This document shows positions 4,845 to 35,882 of a stretch of DNA of 64,000 bases, piece by piece. The translations under genes were made by a program, and so were the position numbers. A model generated the notes under the pieces. The model was not told the DNA's origin and searched no databases. It saw only the letters and a list, made by a program, of their open reading frames with translations. The stretch is taken from NCBI GenBank assembly GCA_018771605.1, contig CP076324.1, positions 620,001 through 684,000 on the forward strand, in the 5' to 3' direction. This DNA comes from Aquificota bacterium. Its GTDB lineage: Bacteria; Aquificota; Aquificia; Aquificales; Aquificaceae. Numbering within the stretch: the first letter of the stretch is position 1; every line of letters starts with the position of its first letter.

Positions 4845-6083
4845 ATGGTAAAGAAAAAACAGGAGAATTATTGCTCCTTTTGTGGTAGACCTCAAAGCGA
4901 GGTCTTGGTCCTGATAGCTGGACCCAACGATACCTTTATATGCGACCGATGCGTGGAGGCATGCAACGTAATAATAAAGGAACAGAAAAAACACCTTGTT
5001 CAAAGCTTTTCAAAAGACCTACCCACACCCGAGGAAATAAAAAGGGAGCTTGATCAGTATGTAATAGGCCAGGAAAGGGCAAAGAAGGTGCTTTCTGTGG
5101 CCGTTTACAACCACTATAAGAGAATAAGGGCAAAGGAGCTTGGGCTTAGCCTTGACGATGTGGAGATAGAAAAGAGCAACATACTCCTTATAGGTCCAAC
5201 CGGTTCTGGCAAGACCCTTTTGGCAAAGACCCTTGCAAAGATATTGGATGTGCCTTTTGCCATAGCGGATGCCACCACCCTAACAGAGGCGGGTTATGTG
5301 GGTGAGGATGTGGAAAACGTGCTTGTAAGACTTTTACAAAACTGCGGGTATGATGTAAAGGCTGCCCAAAAGGGCATAGTATATATAGATGAGATAGACA
5401 AGATAGCCAAAAAGTCTGGCATAAACCCATCCATAACCCGTGATGTCTCCGGCGAGGGTGTTCAGCAGGCCCTTTTAAAGATATTGGAAGGCACCATTGC
5501 CAACGTGCCACCACAGGGAGGGAGAAAGCACCCTCACCAAGAGTTTATACAGGTGGATACTACCGATATTCTCTTCATATGCGGTGGAGCCTTTGTGGGC
5601 CTTGAGGAGATAGTAAAGCGTAGGCTTGGTAAATCTGTGGTTGGCTTTGAGGCTGAAATAAAGAAGTTTGAAAGCCATGAAAACCCACTTCATTTTGTAG
5701 AGGTGGATGACCTTGTGCATTTTGGCCTAATCCCAGAGTTTGTAGGAAGGCTTCCCGTTATAGCGGTGCTTGACGAGCTTACAGAAGAAGAGCTTGTAAG
5801 GATTTTAGTAGAACCCAAAAACGCCCTTGTAAAGCAATACAAAAAGCTCTTTGAGATGGAAGGAGTGGAGCTTGAATTTACAGAAGATGCCCTTGTGGAG
5901 ATAGCCAAAGAGTCCATAAGGAGAAAAACCGGTGCCAGAGGCCTAAGGGCCATAATGGAAGAAATTATGCTGGATGTTATGTTTGAAATTCCTTCTCTCA
6001 AAGATATAAGGAAGGTGATTGTAAGCGGAGAGGTGGTAAGGAAAAAGCTAAAGCCCACCTACATAATGAGGGAGGCAGTATAA
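4845..6083 (+). CDS. clpX: ATP-dependent Clp protease ATP-binding subunit
   Basis: 412 residues. ClpX unfolds tagged substrates and feeds them to ClpP. A C4 zinc-binding domain (Cys10, Cys13, Cys33, Cys36) leads, then the AAA+ core with Walker A GPTGSGKT (117-124), Walker B VYIDEIDK, and the sensor region RKTGARGLR. The ClpP-docking loop reads VGF (within KSVVGFEAE) rather than the IGF usual in model species, a conservative change. It lies directly behind clpP. A 34-bp gap to the next gene contains a GGAGG site. Confidence 0.98.
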
Positions 6084-6117
6084 AAGTGTGTTATCATTAT
6101 AGCAGGAGGAATAAATC

Positions 6118-6603
6118 ATGAAAAAATACCTTTTTGCTTTGCTCCTTGCTTCAAGCTTTGGCTTTGCCCAGCAAAAGTTTGTCTGCGTTGACCCTAACAG
6201 GATACTCTCAGAATCCCAGCTTGTAAAGGCAAAAGAAAGCCAACTTAGGGAAAAGGTGCAAGAATACCAAAAACAGCTTGACCAGATAAACAAAAGGCTT
6301 GAGGATTTGAAAAAGCAGATAGAAAGCAAAGGCATAGCCCAAAACGTAAGGGAGCAGAAGATAAAAGAATACCAAAAGGTAGAATCGGAAGGGATGGAAC
6401 TTCAGCAAAAGGCCCAAAAGGAACTTATAGAACTAAAGAATAAACTGGAACAAGAAGTTATAGAAAGAGTTAGGAAAATATCCGAAGACATAGCAAAAAC
6501 GCAAGGATATACCGCCGTTTTGGATTGTGGTGCCTTTGTTTATATAAGCCCAGACATGGATATAACCAAGGAGGTCATCCTAAGGCTTGACCAGCAAAAA
6601 TGA
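6118..6603 (+). CDS. OmpH/Skp-family periplasmic chaperone
   Basis: 161 residues with a clear signal peptide ([17 protein letters not shown]). The body is a long charged coiled coil (about residues 35-125) rich in Lys, Glu and Gln, flanked by short strands, as in Skp/OmpH chaperones that carry outer membrane proteins across the periplasm. Its stop overlaps the lpxD start by 4 bp; skp-lpxD linkage is widespread and ties outer membrane protein delivery to lipid A synthesis. A GGAGG precedes the ATG. Confidence 0.9.
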
Positions 6604-27912: not shown

Positions 27913-29493
27913 TCAAAAGATCCATTGGAACTGTAAAGTAATTGCATCGTTCTTTATTTTGACGTTTCCTTCATCAAGCTTTGTATACTCCAAGGTCCAA
28001 CGGAAGTTTTCGTTTATATAGTAGTAGTTTATACCCACGCCCAACTGTTTTATCTTGCCCAGATAGCTGGTAGGGCTGTTATTTTGACCCACAAAGTTTG
28101 TAGCATCTCCATAGAACCTCGTATCATTACCACTTCCAACTTTAACTATCTGTGGCTTGTACTCCGAATAGCTTATGTACGGCTCAAACTTATGCTTGGA
28201 CTGTGGATTTATCATATATCCCGCCTTTACAAGCCAAAAATCGTTTTTTATGCTTTTGTTAGGATATACGTTGTTAGCACCGTCAGTAAGAACAAGCTTG
28301 TCAAACTTTACTTGACCTAATTCTGCCACAAAGGATATGGGCCCATGGTGCCAAGCAAAGTCCACACCATAGAATTTCATATCAACCTTGTTGTCAAGGA
28401 GAGTATTAGCCAAAGTAGTATTTGCTGCAGACAAAGGATTGGGTAGCAATAAGTAGGGTATTCTTATATTAACAGTGCCAGCTCCGTTTTGGAGAGAACC
28501 ATTACCAGCAACACCTGGAGATATACCCTGCGTATCTGTAATAATGTGCTGGTCTATCTTGTTCTGAAAGGCGTAAGAGACTCCAACTGTTATACCTTTT
28601 CTCTTGCCAAGATAGGTATCTCTGTAAAGCCAGTTGTATATGGCAGGCCTTCCCTCTGGGTCTCCAAAGCTAAGAGTGCCTCTAAACGTTATAAGCGGGC
28701 TGTTGGAAGAATTTCCCCTTGCCTTTGAAAGGCAGGTAGCCACACCTGCGTTGGGTGCTGTATAACCACAAAGAGGTGTTGTAGCAGAAGGTTGTGCAAC
28801 CACAGTCTCATCCCACGGGTTTTTAACATTTTTAAACCCACCAAACAATCCCAAAAAGCCATCTACAGTTATCTTAGAGTAGCCCTGCCCTTTGTTGGAA
28901 CCTCTTATATGTGCATATCCTCCAAAGGCCCTTCCTGTTACATCACCTGTGGCCAAATGCGTCCATCTTAGTGTTGCATTGGTCCTATCTAAGTCAAGGT
29001 TATCATAAGCCCTCTGGAACTGTTCTCTACCCAGTGGCACCCTTGGGTATCCAAGGTGTAGGTCAAGGGTTATGCCCTTCATATCGGTCATGGCGCTGGG
29101 TACAAGCACTGCATCCAATTCATGTATTACACCTGTGTTTCTGTTGCTTTGTCTTTTGGCATGTGTTGGCTGTCCACCAAAGGGTGCATCATAAGGATCT
29201 CTTCCAAAGTCGTTATCTCTCAAAACAAAGTTGAACTTAAACCAAGGGTTAACACTTCCTCCAAATCTCAACCTTACCCTTCTAAAGAAAATATCACTCC
29301 TATCGCTTGCATTTACAAAGTTTGGCCTGTTTTGACTGCTTATATCCTGTTGTCTAAACCATATCTGCATAAGAAGGTTTATATCCATGTATTGTTCTTC
29401 TGAAGCTCCAGAAAGTCTGATGGCGTGAGAGAGGTCGGGTGTAAATAAAGCAGCAGTAAGTAAAAAGGCACCTATCACCTTTTTGTTTTTCAT
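27913..29493 (-). CDS. Outer membrane porin, OprP/OprO-like
   Basis: 526 residues with signal peptide (ending DLSHA) and terminal Phe (LQFQWIF). The N-terminal mature part YMDINLLMQIWFRQQD and FFRRVRLRFGGSVNPWFKFNFVLRDND resembles phosphate-selective porin O/P proteins, and many GVDFAWHHG-type strands follow. It lies 11 bp behind the DsrE-like gene and is under the sigma-54 promoter at 30049. Substrate is unknown; an oxyanion is a reasonable guess from the family. Confidence 0.82.
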   Translation of the reverse strand: MKNKKVIGAFLLTAALFTPDLSHAIRLSGASEEQYMDINLLMQIWFRQQDISSQNRPNFVNASDRSDIFFRRVRLRFGGSVNPWFKFNFVLRDNDFGRDPYDAPFGGQPTHAKRQSNRNTGVIHELDAVLVPSAMTDMKGITLDLHLGYPRVPLGREQFQRAYDNLDLDRTNATLRWTHLATGDVTGRAFGGYAHIRGSNKGQGYSKITVDGFLGLFGGFKNVKNPWDETVVAQPSATTPLCGYTAPNAGVATCLSKARGNSSNSPLITFRGTLSFGDPEGRPAIYNWLYRDTYLGKRKGITVGVSYAFQNKIDQHIITDTQGISPGVAGNGSLQNGAGTVNIRIPYLLLPNPLSAANTTLANTLLDNKVDMKFYGVDFAWHHGPISFVAELGQVKFDKLVLTDGANNVYPNKSIKNDFWLVKAGYMINPQSKHKFEPYISYSEYKPQIVKVGSGNDTRFYGDATNFVGQNNSPTSYLGKIKQLGVGINYYYINENFRWTLEYTKLDEGNVKIKNDAITLQFQWIF

Positions 29494-29504: not shown

Positions 29505-30011
29505 TTATTGAACTTTTATGTAAGCAAAGCCTTGAGATTGCAGATGTCCTATTGCGCCAACGCCAGAAGGCACGATCTTCGTAAATTCATGAAGCTTATT
29601 TGGATCCAACTTAAGCCTTTGCAGTGTTATGTTGCATATATAGAACTCCACGCCATAGGCAAGCAGGTCCTTCTCCATTTGATAAAGCTCGCCTATCTTT
29701 ACAGCTTCTGTCTCCCAAGGACTACCAGATAGGTCCTTCATGAAGAACTTAACGCCAGGGCCATGGGCAACAACCACTATCTTTATCTTGAGTGGGTCAT
29801 TATCATAAACAGACATATGGTTCCTTATGTTTCCAAGCATAGCCTTAAACCTTGCTTCTTGTGGGAAATCACAGTGATAAACCACTCCCAGCTGTGCTTC
29901 CTTCTTCAAGTCCTCCATCTTTACTTTGGGTGGTGCAGCTACCGCAAGCCTATTTATAAAAGGCACAGAGGCTAAAAGGGTAGCCCATTTAAAAAAACCT
30001 CTCCTGTCCAT
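29505..30011 (-). CDS. Tat-exported DsrE-family protein
   Basis: 168 residues. A twin-arginine signal (MDRRGFFKWATLLASVPF ... AVAAPP) predicts export as a folded protein, as in several periplasmic DsrE-like proteins. The mature part LGVVYHCDFPQEARF, KIKIVVVAHGPGVKFFM and YGVEFYICNITLQRL is the DsrE/DsrF fold, with a single Cys (in YICNIT) near the position used for persulfide carriage. The frame is open to 30086, but the Met at 30011 follows an AGGAGG and gives the signal peptide. First gene of the sigma-54-driven dsrE-porin operon. Confidence 0.85.
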   Translation of the reverse strand: MDRRGFFKWATLLASVPFINRLAVAAPPKVKMEDLKKEAQLGVVYHCDFPQEARFKAMLGNIRNHMSVYDNDPLKIKIVVVAHGPGVKFFMKDLSGSPWETEAVKIGELYQMEKDLLAYGVEFYICNITLQRLKLDPNKLHEFTKIVPSGVGAIGHLQSQGFAYIKVQ

Positions 30012-30048: not shown

Positions 30049-30064
30049 AGCAAAAAACATGCCA
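30049..30064 (-). promoter_or_regulatory. Sigma-54 promoter of the dsrE-porin operon
   Basis: Minus strand: TGGCAT-GTTTT-TTGCT, with the invariant GG and GC at the right spacing. Initiation near 30038 leaves a short leader with AGGAGG before the ATG at 30011. Tandem 14-bp repeats lie 64-97 bp further upstream. Confidence 0.8.
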
Positions 30065-30127
30065 AGATGTCACAGGGCTTATACATAGATAAATCAAGGC
30101 TTTTAAATAAGGTAAGATTTAATCCTT

Positions 30128-30161
30128 ATTGCCACTTTGACCATTTAATTGCCAATTTGAC
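30128..30161 (-). promoter_or_regulatory. Tandem 14-bp repeats, probable NtrC-type enhancer site
   Basis: ATTGCCACTTTGAC (30128-30141) and ATTGCCAATTTGAC (30148-30161) match at 13 of 14 positions with a 20-bp period, close to two helical turns. On the operon strand each reads GTCAAA-TGGCAAT. Position and periodicity suit dimer sites for a sigma-54 activator; the regulator gene starting at 33020 is the obvious candidate. Confidence 0.7.
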
Positions 30162-30171
30162 AATCACATAA

Positions 30172-31714
30172 GAAGGTGTGTCAAAAATCCACTCTACCTA
30201 CAATTATGTTAAAATAACAAAGAGATGATAACCATAAGCACTAAGCTTTTATTCTCAAACTATCAAGACAAAGAGAAGGTCTTAAACCTAATGAGAATAT
30301 GGTCTTCTGCTATGAGATATGCCTACAAAAGACTTTCAGAAAGCATGGATATCAACACTTTAAGAAAGTTAATTCAAAATGTGTTTGGACTAAACGCAAG
30401 ATATTCACACTCAGCCATTGTTAAAGCACAAGCCTTGATGAAAGTAAGAAAAGAGAAAGGAGAAAGCTTAAAAAAGGTTATATTTGGCGGAAGAGATAAT
30501 TTTAGAAAATTGCAAAAAAGACATATAAACGGGAAAGACTACCAAAAGTTAAAAATACAATTCCAAGAGAGGAGAAAAGGCAATCTATACTCCATAGGAC
30601 AAGCAAATTGTAAAGGAAACCAAAACACAAGGATAGAAGTAAAAGAGGATAGGACCTATCTTAGAATAAACACAGGAGAAAGGCAATATGTATATGCCTT
30701 GATAAGTGCAGGGGATAGGATAGACAAGATTAAAGAGATAGCTTTTTCTGGAAGAGCATATACGGTAGAGCTAAAGCTAAGAGATGGCAATGTGTATGCT
30801 TACTTCACCATAGAGGAAGAATATCCACAGATAGAGATAACCAAAGCTTATGGAGTAATAGGCATAGACCTAAACGCCTATCCAAACCACATAGCTTGGG
30901 CTGAGACAGATGAATATGGAAACCTTTTAAGCTATGGTGAAATAGCTATGCCAGAACTGGGAAGTGGGAATGGCAATAAAAGAGACTATTACATCTGGAT
31001 ATACGCACATAGAGTTGTAAGCTTAGTTAAAGAGAAAGGAAAGGCAATAGTTATAGAGAAGTTAAGGATAAAAGACAAAGGAAAAAAAGGAGATTATTCT
31101 GGGAGGCTTTCAAGAAGGATAAGGCATAACTTTGCTTACAGAAAGCTATTAGAAAGGATAAAGCTACTTGCAAAAAGGAATGGCATAGAAGTGATAGAAG
31201 TAAATCCAGCCTACACATCCATCATAGGCATGTTAAAGTATGCACCGCAATACATGGTAAGCAAGGATGTAGCAAGTGCCTATGTGATAGCAAGAAAAGG
31301 CTTAGGACTAAAGGAAAAAGTGCCAAAGAATTATGTGGAGCTTCTTAGAAAGTTAAGCATAGAGGAGTTAAAGGAATTAAAAGAGTATGTGAGAGAAAAG
31401 GTAAAGAACGCTTATTTAAAAGCCAAGCATATGAAAGAGATAAGCTATTTAATAAAAAGCCTTGAGAGTGAGCCAAGGAGAGTATCTGAGCCTCTGGAAG
31501 GAACAAGCTTAGGTACTCAATTTAATCCATGGCGAGTTCTCAAGGTAGTGGTGCTAACCGCACTCTCCCCTGAGAGGGTCATAAGGGACCTCTCTGTCCT
31601 GAAAGATATTCTCTTTCGGGGCTTGTGGGGAGACCCGAAAAGGGCACGAGCTCCTACTGCAGGGGGTAGGGGCGTAGTCTGTGTGAAAACGCAGGCTATT
31701 TTTGAAACACCCTG
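30172..31714 (+). mobile_element. TnpB-only element copy 1, with inverted-repeat ends and target duplication
   Basis: Left end GAAGGTGTGTCAAAAAT (30172-30188); right end ATTTTTGAAACACCCTG (31698-31714), which is its inverted repeat at 14 of 17 positions. ATCACATAA flanks both sides (30163-30171, 31715-31723), a 9-bp target duplication (10 bp if the next G is counted). The cargo is a single tnpB-like gene with no tnpA. The insertion lies exactly at the stop codon of the NtrC-type regulator gene and 2 bp from the enhancer repeats, so it separates regulator from target operon without breaking either. Confidence 0.88.
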
Positions 31715-31715
31715 A
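30225..31715 (+). CDS. TnpB-like RuvC nuclease, zinc-ribbon-less type, copy 1
   Basis: 496 residues, longer than typical TnpB. Probable RuvC residues are Asp215 (GVIGIDLNAYP), Glu278 (AIVIEKLRI) and Asp348 (SKDVASAYVIARKGLG). The CxxC zinc ribbon normally between the last two motifs is absent; instead NPAYTSIIGMLKYAPQY is present, as in the TnpB-related branch of the IS200/IS605 accessory proteins. The last ~72 residues are encoded by the structured 3' region and may be a by-product of read-through or a real extension. The TGA stop uses the first base of the flanking target sequence. About 93 percent identical to copy 2 by eye. Confidence 0.9.
   Translation: MITISTKLLFSNYQDKEKVLNLMRIWSSAMRYAYKRLSESMDINTLRKLIQNVFGLNARYSHSAIVKAQALMKVRKEKGESLKKVIFGGRDNFRKLQKRHINGKDYQKLKIQFQERRKGNLYSIGQANCKGNQNTRIEVKEDRTYLRINTGERQYVYALISAGDRIDKIKEIAFSGRAYTVELKLRDGNVYAYFTIEEEYPQIEITKAYGVIGIDLNAYPNHIAWAETDEYGNLLSYGEIAMPELGSGNGNKRDYYIWIYAHRVVSLVKEKGKAIVIEKLRIKDKGKKGDYSGRLSRRIRHNFAYRKLLERIKLLAKRNGIEVIEVNPAYTSIIGMLKYAPQYMVSKDVASAYVIARKGLGLKEKVPKNYVELLRKLSIEELKELKEYVREKVKNAYLKAKHMKEISYLIKSLESEPRRVSEPLEGTSLGTQFNPWRVLKVVVLTALSPERVIRDLSVLKDILFRGLWGDPKRARAPTAGGRGVVCVKTQAIFETP
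31500..31714 (+). ncRNA. Putative omega (guide) RNA region of TnpB element copy 1
   Basis: The last 215 bp are almost identical to copy 2 and, where they differ, pairing is kept. Stem CCTAC (31653-31657)/GTAGG (31666-31670) becomes CCCGC/GCGGG in copy 2, two compensatory changes. Stem CTGTGT/ACGCAG (31679-31694, loop GAAA) becomes CTGTGT/GCACAG. Further GC-rich complementary segments (CTCTCCCCTGAGAG, GGGACC) lie upstream. In IS200/IS605 systems the reRNA/omega RNA ends at the element right end and takes its guide from the flank, here starting ATCACATAAGG. Confidence 0.65.
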
Positions 31716-33020
31716 TCACATAAGGTTGTACTTTTTCAATTTTCTGTAGAAGGTCCTTAGTGGAATGTCCAAAAGCTCTGCAGCCTTCTTTTTATTAAAA
31801 TTCACCTTTTTTAACACCTCTTCAATCTTTACCTTCTCCATCTCTTTAAGGCTTTCTGGCTTTTTGTTAAAAGGCATGCTAATATGCTCCTCGTCAATTA
31901 GATTACCACTGCACAAAAGCACCGCCCTCTCTATTATGTTTTTTAGCTCTCTCACATTGCCAGGATAGTCATAAGAAAGAAGCAACTTTTTTGCTCTTTC
32001 TGTAATCCCTTCTATCTTTTTGTTATATTTCCTCTTGAACTTCTCAAGGAAATGCTCTGTCAAAGGTATTATATCTTCCTTCCTTTCCCTTAAAGGTGGA
32101 ATCCTAATCTCAACGGTGTTTAGCCTATAGTATAAATCATCTCTAAATAACCCGTCTTCCACAAGCTTTTGTATATCCCTGTTGGTTGCAGATATAATAC
32201 GCACATCAGCCTCTATCTCCTTCCTTCCACCTACCCTATAGAATTTCTTTTCTTCTATGGCTCTCAAAAGCTTGGCTTGTAATGCCAAGTCAAGTTCTGC
32301 TATTTCATCCAAAAATAGAGTTCCATTCCTGGCAAGCTCCAAAAAGCCCTCCTTTGGTTGGTTTGCCCCCGTAAAGGCCCCCCTTTCATGCCCAAAAAGC
32401 TCCACCTCCAAAAGGTCCGTAGGTATGGCGGATACATTTATAGCTATAAAGGCCTTGTCCTTTCTATCGCTAAGTTTATGTATAAGCTTGGCTACAAGCT
32501 CCTTTCCAACTCCACTTTCACCTTGAATGAGAACATTACAATCACTACAGGCTATTTTTTCAACTGTCTCAATTACCTTTTTCATAGCAGGGCTTGCCAC
32601 AATCATCTCCTCTTCCATCAATCTCTTTTCTTGCTTTAAAAGCCTGTTTTCCCTCTTAAGGTTTAGCATACTCTCAATCTTTTTAACAACCAGCTCAACC
32701 TCCTCCAAGCTACAGGGCTTGGTCAGAAAATCAAAGGCTCCAAGCTTTGTAGCCTCAACGGCCGTCTTTATGGTTCCATGCCCCGTTATAACAACAACCT
32801 CTTGGTTAGTGTTAGTCTCTTTTATCCTTTTTAATAGTTCCATACCGTTCATATCTGGTAAAAACAGGTCAAGTAGTATAAGGTCATAGTGCTGGCTTTC
32901 TAAGTGTTCTATGGCGCTTTTTCCGCTTGCCACATGCTCGGTTAAATAGCCCTTTTCCCTCAAGAACTTTGCCAAAAGCCACCCATATTCAACTTCATCC
33001 TCAACTATTAGTATTTTCAT
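31716..33020 (-). CDS. NtrC-family sigma-54-dependent response regulator
   Basis: 434 residues. Receiver domain with phospho-acceptor Asp51 (ILLDLFLPD) and Lys in TKPCS; AAA+ domain with Walker A GESGVGKE, the sigma-54 contact loop GAFTGA and Walker B FLDEI; C-terminal Fis-type helix-turn-helix (NKKKAAELLDIPLRTFYRKLKK). The ATG at 33020 (MKILIVEDE) overlaps the kinase gene by 20 bp. The stop lies at the right edge of the TnpB element. It most likely binds the repeats at 30128-30161 to drive dsrE-porin. Confidence 0.95.
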   Translation of the reverse strand: MKILIVEDEVEYGWLLAKFLREKGYLTEHVASGKSAIEHLESQHYDLILLDLFLPDMNGMELLKRIKETNTNQEVVVITGHGTIKTAVEATKLGAFDFLTKPCSLEEVELVVKKIESMLNLKRENRLLKQEKRLMEEEMIVASPAMKKVIETVEKIACSDCNVLIQGESGVGKELVAKLIHKLSDRKDKAFIAINVSAIPTDLLEVELFGHERGAFTGANQPKEGFLELARNGTLFLDEIAELDLALQAKLLRAIEEKKFYRVGGRKEIEADVRIISATNRDIQKLVEDGLFRDDLYYRLNTVEIRIPPLRERKEDIIPLTEHFLEKFKRKYNKKIEGITERAKKLLLSYDYPGNVRELKNIIERAVLLCSGNLIDEEHISMPFNKKPESLKEMEKVKIEEVLKKVNFNKKKAAELLDIPLRTFYRKLKKYNLM

Positions 33021-34923
33021 AGCTCCCATCTCCTTTTTTAATATATACACGGACCTCGCACCCTTTATGTAGATTCTCATACTCTATTTTCCCTCCCATC
33101 TCTTCCACAAACCTTTTTGCGATAGCTAAACCAAGGCCAAAGCCGTTTTCCTTTGATGTATAAAAAGGTGAAAAGACCTCTTCGGAAGGTATTCCTGGTC
33201 CCTCATCCCTTATCCTCCATACCAAGAAAGAATTCATTTCCTCTATGTTTATATAAACTTTGCCTTGCATAGGTGAAGCATCTATGGCGTTATCTATGAT
33301 GTTTAAAAGTATCTGTTCAAGCTTCCAAGGATAGGTAAAAATTCTCTTGTTATTCACATTTGCACTTAGCTCTATAACCACACCTTTTTTCCTAGCTTTA
33401 AAGTTAATTATATCCAAAAGGTCCTTTGTAAAGTTAAAAGGATCAATCTCTTCTGGTGAACCATCGCAGTTTTTTGCTATGTAAAGCAACCTTTTAACCG
33501 TGTTTTTTACCCTTTCGGCATTCTTCAACACCACATCAGCCATATCTTTGAGTTCCTTTTCATCGGCTACACTTTTTATATACTCCGTATACCCCATAAT
33601 AGAAGCCAGAGGATTATTCAATTGATGTGCCAAAGAGCAAGCTATCTCACCAACAATAGCCAATCTTGAATACCTATTGATAAGAAACTCAAGGTTCTTT
33701 TTGTCGGTAATATCCTTTATATGGAAGAGAGTATAGCTTTTTTCTTCCATATCAATAGGTATGGATGCTATAGAAGCATACCTGCTTTTGCCCTTTATCT
33801 CCAAAAGGCTTTCTGGTATAAAGGTAAAAGAGCCAAGGCTAAGCTTTGGACTTATCTCTTTTACATACAAACCTAAAATCTCTTCTGGCTTTATACCAAA
33901 CATATCTAAAAATTTGTTGTTTGCCATTTCTATAACACCTTTTTCATTTTCCACCAAAAGCAAAGCATCTCCAAGGTTGTTAAAAAGGTTCATATAAACC
34001 CTTTTTTCTTTTTCAAGGCTATCAAGCAAGTTTTGAAAAGCCCTTGCCAATATATAAACCTCACCATAGCCTTTTACTTCAATGTTTTTCTTCTCAGCCC
34101 AGTTAATAACAGATAACTTTAGGTCCTCAAGTGGTTTGAATATTCTCCTAACGGTAAAAAAGCCAATTAGGAATAGCCCTCCACACAAAGCAAAGCTCAA
34201 TAAAAGGGATAATTTTAAGAAATCATAGGCATTCTTATATACATAATCTTCTGGCTCTCTAAGTTCAATACTCATATTAGCATTTTTAATATTTGTTTTA
34301 AGGCTAAGCTGTTTTTTATTGCTTCCTTGGTTTAGCACAAGCACAGGCACCCCTTGAGAGTCTAAAAGTCTTATAGTGGCCTTTTGAATACCATAAGCAT
34401 GTGTATATTCCTTGAGTAGGTCCCTTATGTTTAAGGAACAAACTATAAACCCCAGAGGAATATTGCTGTTCATATCAAAAACCTTCAAGTTAAGGTAGCT
34501 CTCCCCATTAGCATTTGAATATACATTTAGCACTTCATCCTCCCAGTTTAACCTATCTATACTTTTGGGAATACTTTCTAAGGTGGGAAGCCTTGCCTCT
34601 TGAAAGATAAGCCTTCCTTTTGTGTCATAATAACCACAGGCCGTTATATGTTCCATATCTCCCGTTATTCTCCATAGTATTTCTCTTGTATCAATGTCAA
34701 GGCTTCTATACCTTGCAACGAGAGATCTTATTTTTGATTGTGTTAGGTTAATCTCTTCACTTAGCCTATCTGCAAGTATCTTTAAAATTATTGTTTTATC
34801 CCTTTCCCATGATGTTTTTAGCTGGTCCTTCAACACCTGAAAATATGCAAAAACAAAGAAAAACTGAGCAAAAACCATAAAAAAGATAACTATTACTATG
34901 CTTTTCTTTATGCTTTGCCTCAT
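33001..34923 (-). CDS. Membrane sensor histidine kinase with PAS domain
   Basis: 640 residues. Membrane helix at 10-32, a periplasmic sensor of about 200 residues, a second helix near 230-255, a HAMP-like linker, a PAS domain (LLVENEKGVIEMANNKFLDMFG), then HisKA with phospho-His in CSLAHQLNNPLASIMGY and a HATPase domain (NIIDNAIDAS, DEGPGIP, GFGLGLAIAKRFVEE). Coupled to the binding protein upstream (4-bp overlap) and the regulator downstream. The periplasmic part probably reads the state of the neighbouring binding protein. Confidence 0.93.
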   Translation of the reverse strand: MRQSIKKSIVIVIFFMVFAQFFFVFAYFQVLKDQLKTSWERDKTIILKILADRLSEEINLTQSKIRSLVARYRSLDIDTREILWRITGDMEHITACGYYDTKGRLIFQEARLPTLESIPKSIDRLNWEDEVLNVYSNANGESYLNLKVFDMNSNIPLGFIVCSLNIRDLLKEYTHAYGIQKATIRLLDSQGVPVLVLNQGSNKKQLSLKTNIKNANMSIELREPEDYVYKNAYDFLKLSLLLSFALCGGLFLIGFFTVRRIFKPLEDLKLSVINWAEKKNIEVKGYGEVYILARAFQNLLDSLEKEKRVYMNLFNNLGDALLLVENEKGVIEMANNKFLDMFGIKPEEILGLYVKEISPKLSLGSFTFIPESLLEIKGKSRYASIASIPIDMEEKSYTLFHIKDITDKKNLEFLINRYSRLAIVGEIACSLAHQLNNPLASIMGYTEYIKSVADEKELKDMADVVLKNAERVKNTVKRLLYIAKNCDGSPEEIDPFNFTKDLLDIINFKARKKGVVIELSANVNNKRIFTYPWKLEQILLNIIDNAIDASPMQGKVYINIEEMNSFLVWRIRDEGPGIPSEEVFSPFYTSKENGFGLGLAIAKRFVEEMGGKIEYENLHKGCEVRVYIKKGDGSYENTNS

Positions 34924-35882
34924 TTTACAACTTGGTCTATAAGGGCAAGTTTATTCTTATCCAAGGTATAACCAAGCTCTCTCAAAGCACCTTGATTTAC
35001 AAAAAGTTTTACTTTATTTACCTTTTCAAAAGGTATATTCTCCACTCTTTCGCCTTTTATTATTCTGTATGCAATATAAGAAGCTTGATAACCTTGGTCA
35101 TAATTAGAACTGCCGTAGGCTATAGTGCAACCTTTTGTGGCTTGTTCAGGAGATAAACACAAGACTGGTACTTGGTAGAAGCGTGCATAATGCAATATAT
35201 AACTTGTAAGGAAGTTTTCCGTATAAAAACAAGGCGTTATTATAATAGCTCCAAAGCCATCTTCTTTCATATGGCTTATTACATATTCAAGGTCTCTTAC
35301 ATCATTAACACTTATGGGAACAACCTTTAAATCATGCTTTTCTCCAGCTTGTATAGTTAATCTGGTGGCAAGCTTTGAAGCTTCAAAACGTGGTGTACAA
35401 AAAACTACAGCTTTTTTTATATCTGGGAAAAATCTTTTAAATATCTCTACCCTCTTCTCCATAAGCTCCGTATTAAGGTTGTCAATGCCAGTTATACCTC
35501 TTATTGGCCTATTCTTCTCATCTACAAAGCCCCATGTTTTAATAGCTGTCCCTCCCATTATGACTACTGGAGCCTTCAAATCCTCTTTAATCTTTTTGAG
35601 ATAATAGGCTTCAAGGCTTCCACCAGCTACTATAATATGAAACTTATCTTCATCCTTTACAATCTCTATGGCTTTTTCTTCAATACCTTTAAGACTGTTC
35701 TCACCGTTATACACTAAAAATTCAACATTCTTTATTCCTAAGTTCTTAAGACCATCTTTAAACCCATCTAACTTTGTCAATCTCCCCTCACCAGATATAA
35801 GCACACCTATTACCACTTTTTTATCCCTATCCCCACAAGACACAAGAAAAAGCAGGAATAGAATAAATACAAATACCCCCAT
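34920..35882 (-). CDS. Substrate-binding lipoprotein (ABC_sub_bind type) of a signalling module
   Basis: 320 residues. Lipobox LVSC (about Cys16) anchors it to a membrane. The fold is a type I periplasmic binding protein: VVIGVLISGEGRLTKLDGFKDGL, VAGGSLEAYYL, VVIMGGTAIKTWG, and a C-terminal YDQGYQASYIAYRIIKGE segment, close to the family of amino-acid-like TrpX/YtsP binding proteins. No ABC permease or ATPase is adjacent; instead a kinase and a regulator follow, so it is probably a sensor subunit. Ligand unknown. A TATTAT 5 bp from the ATG suggests a leaderless transcript. Confidence 0.87.
   Translation of the reverse strand: MGVFVFILFLLFLVSCGDRDKKVVIGVLISGEGRLTKLDGFKDGLKNLGIKNVEFLVYNGENSLKGIEEKAIEIVKDEDKFHIIVAGGSLEAYYLKKIKEDLKAPVVIMGGTAIKTWGFVDEKNRPIRGITGIDNLNTELMEKRVEIFKRFFPDIKKAVVFCTPRFEASKLATRLTIQAGEKHDLKVVPISVNDVRDLEYVISHMKEDGFGAIIITPCFYTENFLTSYILHYARFYQVPVLCLSPEQATKGCTIAYGSSNYDQGYQASYIAYRIIKGERVENIPFEKVNKVKLFVNQGALRELGYTLDKNKLALIDQVVK

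Follow-up and report, generated by a model that had tools for sequence, protein, structure and literature searches.

Paired dyads and a sigma-54 promoter predict an NtrC1 switch for a DsrE-porin operon in the Aquificaceae

What does an NtrC-type response regulator control when its gene is followed, on the same strand, by a pair of repeats, a sigma-54 promoter and genes for a DsrE-family protein and a porin? The question is raised by a window of 64,000 nucleotides, meaning the whole stretch of DNA analysed, in the complete 1.72-Mb genome of a member of the Aquificaceae (G000:C1:620001-684000). A preliminary description of this DNA had proposed that enhancer-like tandem repeats and the promoter link the neighbouring two-component system to the two genes, and had offered this as a regulon prediction. 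We follow the proposal here through the regulatory DNA, the genes on either side of it and the related genomes, and find that a two-dyad UAS together with a sigma-54 promoter very probably constitutes a switch through which the orthologue of NtrC1 would control the DsrE-porin operon.

Reading along the minus strand toward the DsrE gene, TGTGATTGTCAAATTGGCAATTAAATGGTCAAAGTGGCAAT is followed after about 60 bp by TTGGCATGTTTTTTGCTAA and, 36 bp further on, by the ATG at 30011. Within this stretch TTGGCATGTTTTTTGC, at 30050-30065 of the minus strand, matches TTGGCAN5TTTGC exactly, which bears out the TGGCAT-N5-TTGCT promoter of the preliminary description. The promoter as a whole, TTGGCATGTTTTTTGCT (30049..30065, minus strand), has its -24 GG at 30062-30063 and its -12 GC at 30050-30051, with the 10-bp separation and the TTGGCAYN4TTGCW context of sigma-54 promoters, and is exact at all 10 specified bases. 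The two 14-bp repeats, GTCAAAGTGGCAAT (30128-30141) and GTCAAATTGGCAAT (30148-30161), again on the minus strand, are identical at 13 of 14 positions, and both their period of 20 bp and their distance of 64-97 bp upstream of the promoter are as had been described; they are the only exact matches to GTCAAANTGGCAAT in the 1.72-Mb genome. Each is also an imperfect palindrome. The distal UAS dyad, TGTCAAATTGGCA (30150..30162, minus strand), is an exact TGYCA-N3-TGRCA and is kept at all 28 DsrE-porin loci of the family, while the proximal dyad, gGTCAAAGTGGCA (30130..30142, minus strand), has one mismatch (gGTCA) to this pattern, the two centres lying 20 bp apart. Judged by comparison with relatives, the conserved unit is a 13-bp dyad, TGYCA-N3-TGRCA, present twice, and since the unit is a dyad in two similar copies the direct repeat of 14-mers is a consequence of it. 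The enhancer-like repeats of the preliminary description are therefore real and conserved, but they are not simple direct repeats.

The first gene behind the promoter (29505..30011, minus strand) encodes a DsrE-family protein of 168 aa (Pfam PF02635, E 1.6e-11) with a Tat signal (MDRRGFF), in which Cys126 is invariant among the 27 copies compared and Cys47 is conserved only in part. The second (27913..29493, minus strand) encodes an outer-membrane porin-like protein of 526 aa with a weak match to Porin_O_P (E 0.0048) and a match to NCBIfam ExtI (E 2.2e-11) that falls below the cut-off of that model. A porin gene always follows the UAS-bearing DsrE gene, and where a DsrE paralogue has no porin, the UAS and sigma-54 promoter are missing as well. 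For Campylobacterota, a part of OprD-type porins in taking up sulfur has been proposed (PMC10045233); given that proposal, the features of the DsrE protein and the weak relation of the porin to ExtI, our best guess from gene content is that the pair imports or handles a sulfur compound. Two relatives, G016 (L057 6352-7702) and G014 (L060 6357-7943), have an interrupted porin reading frame, the latter with one in-frame TAG, which reflects either decay or sequencing error.

On the other side of the repeats, just upstream and on the same strand as had been noted, lies the gene of an NtrC-family response regulator (31716..33020, minus strand) with receiver, sigma-54 AAA+ and HTH_8 domains. Its best PDB matches, 4l4u and 1ny5, are both NtrC1 of Aquifex aeolicus (PDB 1NY5, 1NY6, 3M0E, 4L4U), with which it shares 60% identity and the same gene order, and we regard it as the NtrC1 orthologue; a search of named genomes with the window regulator returned distant relatives only. 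Over the 1ny5 chain the G016 orthologue and NtrC1 are identical, aligning essentially unchanged, and an exact dyad pair, the promoter and the DsrE gene stand behind the G016 gene. The sensor histidine kinase of the same two-component system (33001..34923, minus strand; HisKA, HATPase_c and PAS) is syntenic in relatives, where it is adjoined by the gene of a putative lipoprotein of the ABC_sub_bind family (34920..35882, minus strand; PF04392, E 2.9e-74), a probable ligand-sensing partner of the kinase. The nearest named model for this protein, below its cut-off, is the tryptophan-binding TrpX, so that a ligand other than a sulfur compound is possible. Autoregulation of the sensor operon was considered and rejected, as the region ahead of the ABC_sub_bind gene, inspected by eye in eight genomes, showed neither a UAS nor a sigma-54 site.

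In the window a TnpB-coding element now sits between the regulator stop codon and the UAS. The element proper (30173-31714, plus strand) is flanked by a 10-bp duplication, ATCACATAAG, with copies at 30163-30172 and 31715-31724, the whole spanning 30163..31724. The duplication restores the last codons and the stop of the regulator, from which it follows that the stop codon originally lay 2 bp from the GTCAAA repeat; this is the distance that the preliminary description had reconstructed, and the very same arrangement is seen in relatives that lack the element. The insertion left the UAS and promoter untouched and should not have disabled the circuit, the regulator being trans-acting, although we infer that read-through from the sensor operon into the DsrE gene has been lost. 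The encoded TnpB-related protein matches TIGR01766 (E 3e-17), as in IS200/IS605 elements, which have neither terminal inverted repeats nor a target duplication, whereas five of seven full-length copies of this element, the window copy included, have inverted ends (about AGGGTGTTTCAAAAAT) and duplications of 9-10 bp. Such ends and duplications are features of the DDE type and not of IS200/605 or IS607, and TnpB is possibly a passenger of an element that a different transposase mobilises; further copies are found at L161-L166, along with short derivatives carrying internal deletions.

If the dyads and promoter serve the DsrE-porin operon, they should follow it through the family. The porin gene is present in 29 Aquificaceae genomes and in one genome of another family; leaving aside G064, which has a porin fragment only, 28 family genomes enter the operon count. 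In every one of the 28 the dyad pair precedes DsrE or follows the regulator; the scan showed this for 26, and the right contigs of G057 and G059 showed it for the other two. The sigma-54 promoter is found in each of the 27 genomes whose assembly covers the promoter region, the contig of G059 ending before it. The promoter count comprises G057 and 26 of 26 scanned upstream regions, 16 of them exact, in a scan that allowed 2 mismatches among the 10 bases and held the GG fixed. Relatives that keep the operon and lack the repeats or the promoter, named in the preliminary description as evidence against its proposal, were not found among these genomes. Over the 52 sites at 26 loci, dyad positions 2, 4, 10, 12 and 13 are invariant, positions 1 and 9 are kept in 51 and position 5 in 47, and the three central bases vary; the centre-to-centre distance is 19-21 bp throughout. 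That the repeats are similar by chance or through low complexity, the intergenic region being AT-rich, could be argued from the single-dyad pattern, which recurs elsewhere in the window genome at a rate near background (8 matches, against 5 for a reversed control), with no link to sigma-54 sites among the matches listed. The paired arrangement, in contrast, is unique and is kept in 28 genomes from seven genera, and although simple genome counts of this kind are inflated by phylogenetic dependence, we consider the probability of a chance origin negligible.

In most relatives the first dyad adjoins the regulator stop codon, and the dyad of G057 includes that codon, so the repeats do persist where the TnpB insertion is absent, a comparison that the preliminary description had proposed. 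That position would also suit RNA hairpins that serve the two-component operon as a terminator or an mRNA 3'-end element, given that each dyad could fold right behind the stop codon into a stem of 5 bp closed by a loop of 3 nt. Dyad positions 3 and 11 do not covary, however, being pairable in 30 of 52 sites where 29.5 are expected, and the dyads are without a T-run. In genera g7 and g9, moreover, the sensor genes, the regulator and the DsrE-porin genes stand at separate places, and the dyads and promoter are found with the DsrE-porin genes, far from the regulator. On the lack of covariation and the unlinked loci we rejected the hairpin or terminator, which is very improbable. The same attachment to the target is seen in G019, G063, G065, G066 and G021, where the regulator is elsewhere and the UAS stays with DsrE-porin; in G066 the sensor pair lies 3 kb from the regulator.

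The sole DsrE-porin operon found outside the Aquificaceae, that of G038 in another family (L156, about 6058-6320), is without NtrC1 dyads. It has a sigma-54-like TTGGCATATTTTTTGA and three 16-bp dyads, TGTTCCGTATAGGACA, TGTTCCATTTAGGACA and TGTTCAGATTTGGACA, which resemble the site of the regulator TspR, and a regulator exchange on the same operon is possible.

The identity of the protein that reads the dyads is addressed by co-occurrence. With a strong orthologue defined by an E below 1e-125, NtrC1 is present in 26 of the 28 operon genomes and in none of the 35 without the operon, among 64 family genomes; conversely, all 26 genomes with a strong orthologue have the operon, and 35 of the 64 have neither. 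An orthologue was not detected in three operon or remnant genomes, namely G049 and G079, which are 78% and 96% complete and both carry the UAS, and G064 (L200), which retains a porin remnant of 95 residues and has apparently lost regulator and target together. The presence of the UAS in G049 and G079, together with 13 matches to the sigma-54 activator query in the window genome (which also imply the presence of rpoN), leaves some room for a different regulator, whether another NtrC-type activator or a repressor, with NtrC1 as a bystander. Against this stand the near-perfect match in presence and absence between UAS and NtrC1 orthologues, the fact that genomes without NtrC1 keep other activators and have no exact double dyads, and the contiguity or overlap of the UAS with the NtrC1 stop codon in most genomes; we judge a different regulator improbable. 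NtrC1 is thus the favoured reader of a UAS that lies upstream of the promoter, is conserved and is linked to one activator, and the connection of the regulator to DsrE-porin drawn in the preliminary description gains support from dyad and promoter conservation and from co-occurrence, the binding itself being predicted.

The spacing between UAS and promoter adds a further regularity. Measured between the -24 GG and the centre of the proximal dyad, the distance is 49-52 bp at five loci, 62-64 at four, 72-77 at 16, 87 at one and 97 at one, so that across 27 genomes the values cluster at about 50, 63, 74, 87 and 97 bp in steps of ~12 bp. For the 12 values remaining after a crude reduction by genus, the best period is 11.8 bp, with an R of 0.85 that 0.025% of uniform draws attain; put at 11.8-12.1 bp, the period exceeds the usual 10.5 bp. 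Such clustering suggests that the activator has to be on the same helix face as the promoter, and hence a helix-face dependence of enhancer-promoter contact in hyperthermophiles.

How far the control extends was assessed by a double-dyad scan with a 7-bp spacing in 34 genomes and a 6-bp spacing in 41. Exact matches occur in eight genomes, one in each, all at the DsrE-porin locus; the double dyad of the window and the DsrE site of G019 have one mismatch each. G009 has one additional one-mismatch match, which looks like chance, and the reversed-pattern control gave only a handful of matches at <=2 mismatches. At this threshold the window genome holds no additional double-dyad site, and a multi-operon regulon was rejected on that ground. 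The regulon prediction of the preliminary description is supported; the genome search for more pairs that it proposed yielded none, and the NtrC1 regulon probably consists of one operon.

Taking the dyads, promoter, orthology, conservation, co-occurrence and spacing rule together, we infer a course of events from signal through phosphorylation to binding and looping. The signal, as gene content would have it, is probably a reduced sulfur compound or a related oxyanion, perceived by way of the ABC_sub_bind lipoprotein and the kinase, and the neighbouring kinase would then phosphorylate the NtrC1 orthologue. An NtrC1 dimer would bind each TGYCA-N3-TGRCA dyad through its Fis-type (HTH_8) domain, and the two dimers, two helical turns apart, would seed an AAA+ hexamer that loops over about 50-97 bp and remodels the RNA polymerase-sigma-54 complex at the promoter. 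The DsrE-porin operon, probably the sole target of NtrC1, would thereby be switched on. A wider reading is plausible rather than likely: NtrC1 could be a dedicated single-operon switch that, once the ABC_sub_bind lipoprotein and the kinase sense an extracellular sulfur compound, turns on an outer-membrane channel and an exported DsrE persulfide carrier, forming a sulfur import route of the Aquificaceae that works through a short, helix-phased enhancer-promoter loop.

Circuits of this kind are known, the arrangement being standard for bacterial enhancer-binding proteins. The structural literature consulted states no target gene for NtrC1, and against it the target assignment appears new; two papers beyond it, Vidangos 2013 and 2014, concern DNA-binding domains of Aquifex activators. 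One paper mentions in passing a nanomolar binding of NtrC1 to cognate sites and credits the 2014 paper. NtrC1 itself is of a proven sigma-54 AAA+ activator type. The work credited for that binding reportedly concerns NtrC4. The predicted circuit provides a model AAA+ transcription activator with a concrete DNA site, promoter and target operon. It also draws attention to a conserved, regulated DsrE-porin system that likely takes up or handles a sulfur compound, in hyperthermophiles whose gene regulation has seen hardly any genetic work.

Two characterized systems invite comparison. The rhodanese/porin pair ExtH-ExtI of Geobacter, in which loss of extI lowers selenite and tellurite conversion (PMC5877670), likewise sets a sulfurtransferase-like protein beside a Porin_O_P/ExtI-like porin. 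The window differs in having a DsrE protein in place of a rhodanese, no cytochromes and a porin score far below the ExtI cut-off, and sigma-54 control goes unmentioned in PMC5877670. The closest functional analogue is TspS/TspR of Acidithiobacillus (PMC6335251), a two-component system that exerts sigma-54 control over the sox-II cluster. TspR acts on a sox target through a UAS of other sequence and spacing, TGTCCC-N4-GGGACA as against the TGYCA-N3-TGRCA upstream of DsrE-porin, and the likeness is one of analogy and not of established orthology; in both cases, all the same, an NtrC-type regulator gene of a sulfur oxidiser lies just upstream of a sigma-54 target with a palindromic UAS, in TspR TGTCCCAAATGGGACA.
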